From contig NZ_BNBY01000028.1 in the NCBI RefSeq assembly GCF_014656195.1, forward strand, positions 1 through 64,000: 64,000 nt of DNA. Reading direction: 5' to 3'. The translations under genes and the position numbers were made by a program. This document shows, one piece after another, positions 6,108 through 13,692 of this stretch; position 1 is the first letter of the stretch; each line of letters begins with the position of its first letter. The DNA is from Kitasatospora xanthocidica (GTDB lineage: Bacteria; Actinomycetota; Actinomycetes; Streptomycetales; Streptomycetaceae). Under the pieces are notes generated by a model that was not told where the DNA came from, made no database searches, and was given only the letters and a program-made list of their open reading frames with translations.

Positions 6108-9014
<2,907 letters not shown>

Positions 9015-9100
9015 GGTCCTTCAAGCTCCATCGGTGTCGGTTGGCGAACCGCGCAGGCGGCCGGCGCGTGGGCCCGGCCCGGGACGGGATCGGGGGCGGA

Positions 9101-9127
9101 AAACAAAAAAGCCCCTCGCAGGAGGGG
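9101..9127 (-). terminator. Intrinsic terminator in the leuS leader (attenuator)
   Basis: On the minus strand CCCCTC, a CTGC loop, GAGGGG and C are followed by TTTTTTGTTT, a textbook rho-independent terminator of a kind uncommon in this GC-rich genome. It lies 47 nt past the leader-peptide stop and 87 nt before the leuS ATG, so it would stop transcription before leuS. This is the arrangement expected of an attenuator. Confidence 0.8.
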
Positions 9128-9173
9128 ACGCCACGCCGACTCCGGCACCGCCCGAGGGCTCAGCCGGTCCTGG

Positions 9174-9212
9174 TCAGCGCGGCCGGCTAAGGAGCAGGCG
9201 CACGGTTCGCAT
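9174..9212 (-). CDS. Leucine-rich leader peptide of leuS
   Basis: A 12-codon frame reads MRTVRLLLSRPR and stops. Three consecutive leucine codons, CTG CTC CTT, sit at codons 6-8; CTT is rare in genomes of this type. The stop is followed by an intrinsic terminator and then leuS. The architecture matches classical leader-peptide attenuators: ribosome stalling at the Leu codons when charged tRNA-Leu is low would favour readthrough. There is no Shine-Dalgarno sequence. A TACCCT (TANNNT) -10 lies six nucleotides before the ATG, so translation may be leaderless. Peptide and terminator are visible directly; regulation is inferred. Confidence 0.72.
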   Translation of the reverse strand: MRTVRLLLSRPR

Positions 9213-9218
9213 GGGCTC

Positions 9219-9224
9219 AGGGTA
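9219..9224 (-). promoter_or_regulatory. Candidate -10 for the leuS leader transcript
   Basis: TACCCT on the minus strand would place the transcription start on the A of the leader-peptide ATG (9212). A second candidate, TATACC at about 9252-9257, would give a leader of roughly 30 nt without a ribosome-binding site. No TTGAC-like -35 accompanies either. Confidence 0.4.
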
Positions 9225-9338
9225 CCGCAAGCGGCCCGGCCCGCCGCTGGGTATACCGCCGGGGCCGCGCACGAGCGGGGCCTCTCCCCCACGCCCCCTC
9301 CCCCACGCCCCGCACCCCGGCGCCACCACGCCCCCGCC

Positions 9339-10634
9339 TCAGCGCGCCGCCGTCCGCCCCGCCGCGTCGAAGTCCCGCAGCGCCTTCGCCAGCCGCTCCG
9401 ACTGCATCCCCGCGGCGAGCGAGCGCGCCAGCGCCGCGGTGCGGGCGGCCTCCCGCTGGTCGCCGAGCCGCCGGTGGGTCTCGGCGAGGCGCACCATCAG
9501 CAGCGCCTTGGAGCGTGCCCGCCCGGGTCCGAGCCCCGCGACCGCCTCGGCGAGCGGGGCCTTGGCGAGCCGGGCCCGGCCGAGTGCCAGCCGCCCCTCC
9601 CCGACCATGCCGGCGAGGGAGGCGCGGGCCTCCTCGGTGCCGGGCACGCCGTCCAGTTCGGCGAAGGCCCGGGCGGCGGCGGCCTCGGCCCGGTCCGGCT
9701 CGCCACGGCGGCCGTAGGCGCGGGCGAGCCGGCCGAGCTGGCGGGCCCGGCCGGTGGGGCCGAGGGCCGCGCCGTGGGCCTCCAGGGCGCCCTCCAGGGC
9801 GGAGACGGCGTCCAGGCCGCGCCCGCCGGGGCCCTGGGTGGCGAGCACCACCAGTGCGCCGAGCACGGCGACGCCGAGCCGGGGGTCGCCGCTGACGTGG
9901 GCGGCGCGCAGCGCGGCGACGAAGGCGCGTTGCGCGGCCGCGTCGTGGCCGAGGTCGTACGCGGCCCAGCCGGCCAGTCGGGCGAGCCTGCTGGCGGTGC
10001 CGTACAGCTCGCGTCCCAGCCGTTCGTCGTAGGCGCCGAGTTCCAGCAGCTTGGCGAGCATGGCGAGTTCAGCCCTGGTGGGGCCGAGGACGAGGCCGCC
10101 GCCGCAGGACCGTTCGAGTCGCTGTTTGCTGCGGTAGGACAGGCCGAGTTCGCCGACCAGCGCGGCTTCCACGCGCAGCGCGCCCTCGCCGCCGCCGACG
10201 GGCGGGGGCGGGGAGGTGAACCGGGCGGCGGCCTGGTCGAGGTCGGCGTTGCGGAAGAGGTCGGTGAGGCGGACCGGACCGGCGTCGGTGGCGGCCTCGC
10301 GCAGCGCGGTCTGGGCGGTGTCGGCGGTCCACGGGTCGGTGAGCAGCCGGGGCGAGAGGATCTTGGCGCCGCGGTGGCCGCCCATCCGGCCCCAGAGCTG
10401 CTCGTAGGTGACGGCGATGCCGAGGGTGCGGCTGAGCACTTCGCAGACCGCCTGGTCGTGCGGGCTGCGCGGCACCATGCCGCGGTCGCGCCACTTGTAG
10501 GGGGCGGTGGAGCTGATGGCGAGGCCCGGCGGCAGGGCGAGGCTCACCTCGCGGGCGAGCCGTTCCGGACTCCATCCGAGCTGGTGGAGTATCCGGGCCA
10601 GTTCCTCGTTCCGCCTTCGCTCCAGATCGGCCAT
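9339..10634 (-). CDS. HTH regulator with helical-repeat C-terminus
   Basis: A 431-aa cytoplasmic protein. The N-terminal 85 residues resemble a divergent XRE-like helix-turn-helix (ARILHQLGWSPERLAREV then PYKWRDRGMVP). The rest is an Ala/Leu/Arg-rich succession of helical pairs, with LARAYGRRGEPDRAEAAAA near residue 310, typical of TPR-like scaffolds. Streptomycetes carry many such HTH-TPR regulators, some affecting antibiotic production and sporulation, but I cannot assign this one. The ATG at 10634 follows a weak ribosome site. It sits alone between the leuS leader and a tRNA-Ala gene, so it is probably monocistronic. The DNA target is unknown. Confidence 0.7.
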   Translation of the reverse strand: MADLERRRNEELARILHQLGWSPERLAREVSLALPPGLAISSTAPYKWRDRGMVPRSPHDQAVCEVLSRTLGIAVTYEQLWGRMGGHRGAKILSPRLLTDPWTADTAQTALREAATDAGPVRLTDLFRNADLDQAAARFTSPPPPVGGGEGALRVEAALVGELGLSYRSKQRLERSCGGGLVLGPTRAELAMLAKLLELGAYDERLGRELYGTASRLARLAGWAAYDLGHDAAAQRAFVAALRAAHVSGDPRLGVAVLGALVVLATQGPGGRGLDAVSALEGALEAHGAALGPTGRARQLGRLARAYGRRGEPDRAEAAAARAFAELDGVPGTEEARASLAGMVGEGRLALGRARLAKAPLAEAVAGLGPGRARSKALLMVRLAETHRRLGDQREAARTAALARSLAAGMQSERLAKALRDFDAAGRTAAR

Positions 10635-10722: not shown

Positions 10723-10731
10723 CGACTGCTG

Positions 10732-10804
<73 letters not shown>

Positions 10805-13491: not shown

Positions 13492-13499
13492 AACTGCTG

Positions 13500-13572
<73 letters not shown>

Positions 13573-13619
13573 GCGACACGGACGACCCTGGCTGACTGAC
13601 CACGACCGCCGATGCGGAG

Positions 13620-13692
<73 letters not shown>

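Follow-up and report, generated by a model that had tools for sequence, protein, structure and literature searches.

Layout of the leuS upstream region

The window, a stretch of 64,000 nucleotides from Kitasatospora xanthocidica, carries on its minus strand the leucyl-tRNA synthetase gene leuS, preceded by a −10 box, a short leader frame, a stem that we term P1 and an intrinsic terminator (Table 1). The 12-codon frame, the U-tailed hairpin and leuS described in the earlier note are all present on the minus-strand reading, on which the codons of the frame run ATGCGAACCGTGCGC CTG CTC CTT AGCCGGCCGCGC TGA. Within positions 8900–9500, this hairpin is the sole terminator-like site, with 0.2 such sites expected in shuffles. 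The signature of leader end, partner strand and CCCCT has a single occurrence in the 9.3-Mb genome, elsewhere in which no further copies of the leuS leader element were found. A search of positions 8900–9400 against Rfam, including the T-box, gave no match at E-values up to 1. The fold of the whole leader in the window has a z-score of only −0.98, a value that is uninformative because the sequence is rich in G+C. Three tRNA-Ala(GGC) genes also lie near leuS on the minus strand, at 10731–10804, 13499–13572 and 13619–13692.

Table 1 Features of the leuS upstream region in the window
Feature	Position	Strand	Remarks
NsdA-family TPR regulator gene	9339–10634	−	Upstream neighbour, same strand as leuS; ends 127 nt before the leader
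−10 box TACCCT (TANNNT), putative leaderless promoter	9224–9219	−	6 nt 5′ of the leader ATG
Leader ORF MRTVRLLLSRPR*, 12 codons	9212–9174	−	ATG 9212–9210, stop 9176–9174; near-identical peptide at the same place in relatives
Leu codons CTG CTC CTT	9197–9189	−	Last one, CTT 9191–9189, is the probable control codon
P1 5′ strand GCCGCGCTGA	9183–9174	−	Complementary to 9139–9130; overlaps the last codons and stop of the leader
Variable linker, 34 nt	9173–9140	−	Predicted nested hairpin P2 (folding); length and sequence differ between families
P1 3′ strand TCGGCGTGGC	9139–9130	−	2-nt gap to the terminator 5′ arm
Intrinsic terminator hairpin CCCCTC-CTGC-GAGGGG	9127–9112	−	Terminator scan and conservation
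U tract CTTTTTTGTTTT	9111–9100	−	Directly after the hairpin; read from the sequence
leuS, leucyl-tRNA synthetase, putative regulated gene	9014–6108	−	TIGR00396, 871 bits (cut-off 548)

Distribution of the element

Upstream regions of leuS were collected from named genomes, from relatives and from an even sample of the class. A leader frame is present in 160 loci; 5 loci were added and 2 without a clear layout dropped, and the annotated set comprises 162 elements. The closest named relative is S. novaecaesareae, followed by Kitasatospora cheerisanensis. Within the class, about a dozen family-level groups carry the element, as does one group from another class of the phylum. It is present in Streptomyces, Kitasatospora, Streptantibioticus, Micromonospora and Plantactinospora, in Amycolatopsis, Lentzea, Actinophytocola and Jiangella, and in the further groups f2, f3, f11, f26, f28, f30 and f37. 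A covariance model places it 5′ of leuS in f70, which belongs to the other class, and in f5, whose leuS product shares only about 44% identity with the LeuRS of the window. No leader was found in f6, f15, f18, f24 and some other groups, for which the covariance model shows no divergent forms either. The ATG, Leu run, stop and terminator, whose conservation the earlier note had proposed to examine, are kept across Streptomyces, Kitasatospora and well beyond; since the frame, its CTT codon, the −10 spacing and the terminator recur 5′ of leuS across families, their arrangement is more than chance.

Two groups depart from the common layout. The f5 loci L278 and L282–L289 belong to another LeuRS lineage, and in them the leader stops before P1 and the P1 sequences have diverged. 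In f26 (L134, L135 and L165), the leader and P1 are retained, with CTC in place of CTT and a hairpin that has no U run, which gives the impression of an element in change or decay.

The suggestion that the frame may be leaderless is supported by its spacing. In 157 of 157 annotated loci, 6 or 7 nt separate the end of a TANNNT motif from a downstream in-frame start codon (ATG or GTG), where chance would give 0.008 per position in neighbouring DNA; as these loci are related, the figure describes conservation of the spacing and not 157 independent trials. The transcript would begin with the A of the leader ATG or with a base adjacent to it, as measured for the S. lividans orthologue by published RNA-seq.

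The last leucine codon

The last leucine codon of the leader is CTT in 160 of the 162 annotated elements and CTC in two (f26), and the first and second leucine codons vary freely. CTT is as rare as the earlier note supposed, accounting for 15 of the 1,493 leucine codons (1.0%) in 31 genes of the window, in which 67% are CTG. The number of leucine codons ranges from four down to one across leaders, and CTT is retained as the number falls: L145 and L202 have two, and in L189 (MASQQQRLIGPR) the single leucine codon is CTT. Most f5 leaders have CTT as well, and one (L288) has CTA. In every locus of the class-wide set, CTT lies 9 nt 5′ of P1. The tRNA-Leu anticodons found in the genome are GAG (two copies), CAG (two copies), TAA and TAG, and tRNA-Leu(GAG) is expected to read both CTC and CTT. 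In the Salmonella leu leader, the use of rare control codons (CUA) is known to be important, as discussed in PMC1183508.

Conservation of CTT and its surroundings as an RNA or protein-binding motif, and not as a codon, would account for the A that usually follows CTT, often as AGC, in leuS and leuA leaders, and covariation cannot show at invariant bases. We nevertheless regard this explanation as improbable: CTT stands in frame in all leaders, the consensus fold contains no partner strand for it, and the exceptions are other leucine codons, CTC in f26 and CTA in L288. In addition, 25 of 25 leuA leaders from the same order have CTT as the last codon of their Leu run, an observation that speaks for a role as a codon more than for one in RNA structure.

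The P1 stem

P1 joins the end of the leader frame, GCCGCGCTGA, to a strand located 0–5 nt before the terminator arm, with 9 of 9 pairs in nearly all loci. Among the aligned cells 97.5% are paired, with 15 two-sided changes as against 2.4 in shuffles; the rows were placed by best complement beside the terminator, which biases them towards pairing, a bias addressed by slid controls, in which 44–61% are paired, and by an independent, unguided RNAalifold run, which returns P1 and the terminator only. In Micromonospora-type leaders, an Arg codon CGC has become the Cys codon TGC and the opposite P1 base has changed to match. The stem persists where the frame ends before it, in L147–L149, L080, L213 and all of f5. 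In f5, own partner strands give better pairing than swapped ones, and 21 of 10,000 shuffles reach the observed value, in a set that includes one wrongly anchored locus.

In overlapping the end of the leader frame, P1 takes the position of the 1:2-type stem of classical attenuators. Nearly all families have a UG 10–11 nt past P1, including those with a different loop sequence, a spacing that would correspond to the geometry of a hairpin-dependent pause. Together with the published trp model, in which the 1:2 pause hairpin is melted by the ribosome, this spacing suggests that P1 is a 1:2 hairpin.

Proposed mechanism and ribosome states

We consider it probable that the element is a ribosome-mediated, leucine-sensing transcription attenuator of leuS, and the leader and hairpin very probably switch leuS on when leucine runs short. 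Leader-peptide attenuation of leuS, put forward in the earlier note, is also the best reading here, with the conserved leader, terminator and −10 box in its support. In the mechanism we propose, a ribosome would begin translating the leaderless 12-codon frame before RNA polymerase has left the leader. With leucine plentiful, it would read CTG CTC CTT through to the stop and then leave, upon which P1 would form and the abutting terminator would end transcription. With leucyl-tRNA scarce, it would stall on the rare CTT; given the fixed distance between CTT and P1 and a standard footprint, the leading edge of the stalled ribosome would reach over the first bases of the P1 5′ strand. P1 would thereby be weakened, the polymerase would no longer be held and terminated as it is with leucine plentiful, and leuS would be transcribed.

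Ribosome positions were represented by folding with the covered region barred from pairing, on the assumption that the ribosome extends 13 nt beyond the first A-site base; were this footprint wrong by 3 nt, a different codon would be implicated. P1 is predicted to form while leucine codon 1 or 2 is in the A site, and in most families it loses strength once codon 3 is there. The window does not follow this pattern, as its P1 is still predicted with codon 3 in the A site (0.99). That a stall at codon 1 or 2 leaves P1 free counts against the proposed mechanism, which therefore fits only if CTT becomes limiting first. For two other leaders of S. coelicolor, PMC1262725 quotes codon changes that were without effect (ilvB) or inconsistent with classical attenuation (leuA).

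The terminator is predicted in almost every ribosome state by equilibrium folding. The competing antiterminator fold that the earlier note had proposed to look for is absent in conserved form: ribosome-state equilibrium folding, loop shuffles and RNAalifold did not reveal a conserved antiterminator exclusive with the terminator. Two candidates were set aside. Pairing of the P1 3′ strand with the terminator loop appears in many partial folds, yet it is no better than with shuffled or random loops and is broken in f34; a pairing between the Leu codons and the 3′ arm of the terminator was noted by eye only, and its logic runs the wrong way. Because no conserved antiterminator was found, we infer the step from stalling to failure of termination, and two structural models remain.

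One of them is the mechanism set out above. In the other, P1 itself would be the antiterminator: a ribosome stalled on the Leu codons would leave the P1 5′ strand free and P1, forming right beside the terminator, would hinder it, and a ribosome at the stop would cover P1 and let the terminator work. Just 0–5 nt separate P1 from the terminator 5′ arm in every family and, as P1 stays intact in the folding when the ribosome is at codon 1 or 2, any early leucine stall would give the right response. However, no base belongs to both P1 and the terminator, the two are predicted to form together, and the short fixed distance from CTT places a ribosome stalled there partly on P1. A terminator is not known to be blocked simply by a stem next to it, and we hold this second model to be unlikely.

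Prediction of the terminator in all states (almost all, as given above) also agrees with a reading without leucine sensing: the terminator would simply close an upstream transcript or restrain leuS constitutively, and the frame would be a uORF that is either incidental or a translational enhancer. A suitable upstream gene exists in the same-strand NsdA-family regulator, which ends 127 nt away at 9339. The conservation across families of a rare leucine codon, of the CTT–P1 spacing and of the predicted leaderless start, with CTT favoured likewise in leuA leaders, would be hard to explain in this way, and we judge such a reading to be highly improbable.

Returning to the preferred leucine-sensing attenuator, a broader proposal can be made tentatively, although we find it somewhat doubtful. 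The element may be an old actinobacterial RNA element, present in two LeuRS lineages and two classes, in which a lone rare CTT, set at a constant distance from a stem that abuts the terminator, would be the whole leucine sensor; there would be no classical antiterminator, and the ribosome would control a pause or protector stem.

Relation to known attenuators

Classical attenuators 5′ of leuS were predicted for S. coelicolor and S. avermitilis by Seliverstov and co-workers in 2005 (PMC1262725), and the 2021 reannotation of S. lividans TK24 (PMC8079986) describes leuL2, MRAVRLLLSEPR, which is leaderless by RNA-seq and is followed by a hairpin and U run. The element in the window is the orthologue of this Streptomyces leuS attenuator: it shares with leuL2 the gene, the place, a 12-residue leader (MRAVRLLLSEPR compared with MRTVRLLLSRPR), the leaderless start (here predicted from the −10 spacing) and the hairpin with its U run. 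The reading as a leuS leucine attenuator is well supported but not new, and such control is less unfamiliar for a leucyl-tRNA synthetase than the earlier note held, having been published in both 2005 and 2021. Within the literature covered, the additions made here are the phylum-wide spread, the fixed CTT and P1. The published accounts are limited to Streptomyces and describe the attenuator as classical, with an antiterminator, whereas the conserved part identified here is the terminator-adjacent P1; the 'antiterminator' of PMC1262725 may be P1.

Similar to the enterobacterial trp and leu attenuators, the leuS element has a leader peptide with control codons, rare control codons, a 1:2 hairpin over the frame end and an intrinsic terminator. 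It differs from them in its putative leaderless start, its synthetase target, the abutment of P1 on the terminator and the lack of a clear 2:3 pairing. As in T-box leaders of synthetase genes, charging of the cognate tRNA would be sensed to control a synthetase, but there is no T-box match here and the sensor would be the translating ribosome.

Leaderless leucine leader control of leucyl-tRNA synthetase would thus be widespread in the phylum and no peculiarity of Streptomyces. The natural variants, with one leucine codon, early stops or a changed P1, suggest that one codon and one stem are the parts that count. They make two general questions testable: which isoacceptor is read by an attenuator, and how attenuation proceeds where no antiterminator is evident.

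For leuA, the S. lividans reannotation lists a leader of its own, leuL1 (PMC8079986). The actinobacterial LEU element of leuA leaders has in common with the leuS element a near-leaderless leucine leader and a Leu run ending in CTT. It differs in having been published without a typical terminator and with its run of Leu codons described as pairing with the leuA Shine–Dalgarno box (PMC1262725, PMC8079986). The genome of the window holds two leuA-like genes with short leader frames, each containing CTT CTT CTT: one at L226:1182 on the plus strand, with the leader MRNGLLLLSCRVEGL, and one at L227:1228 on the minus strand, with a frame containing GGLLLGG.
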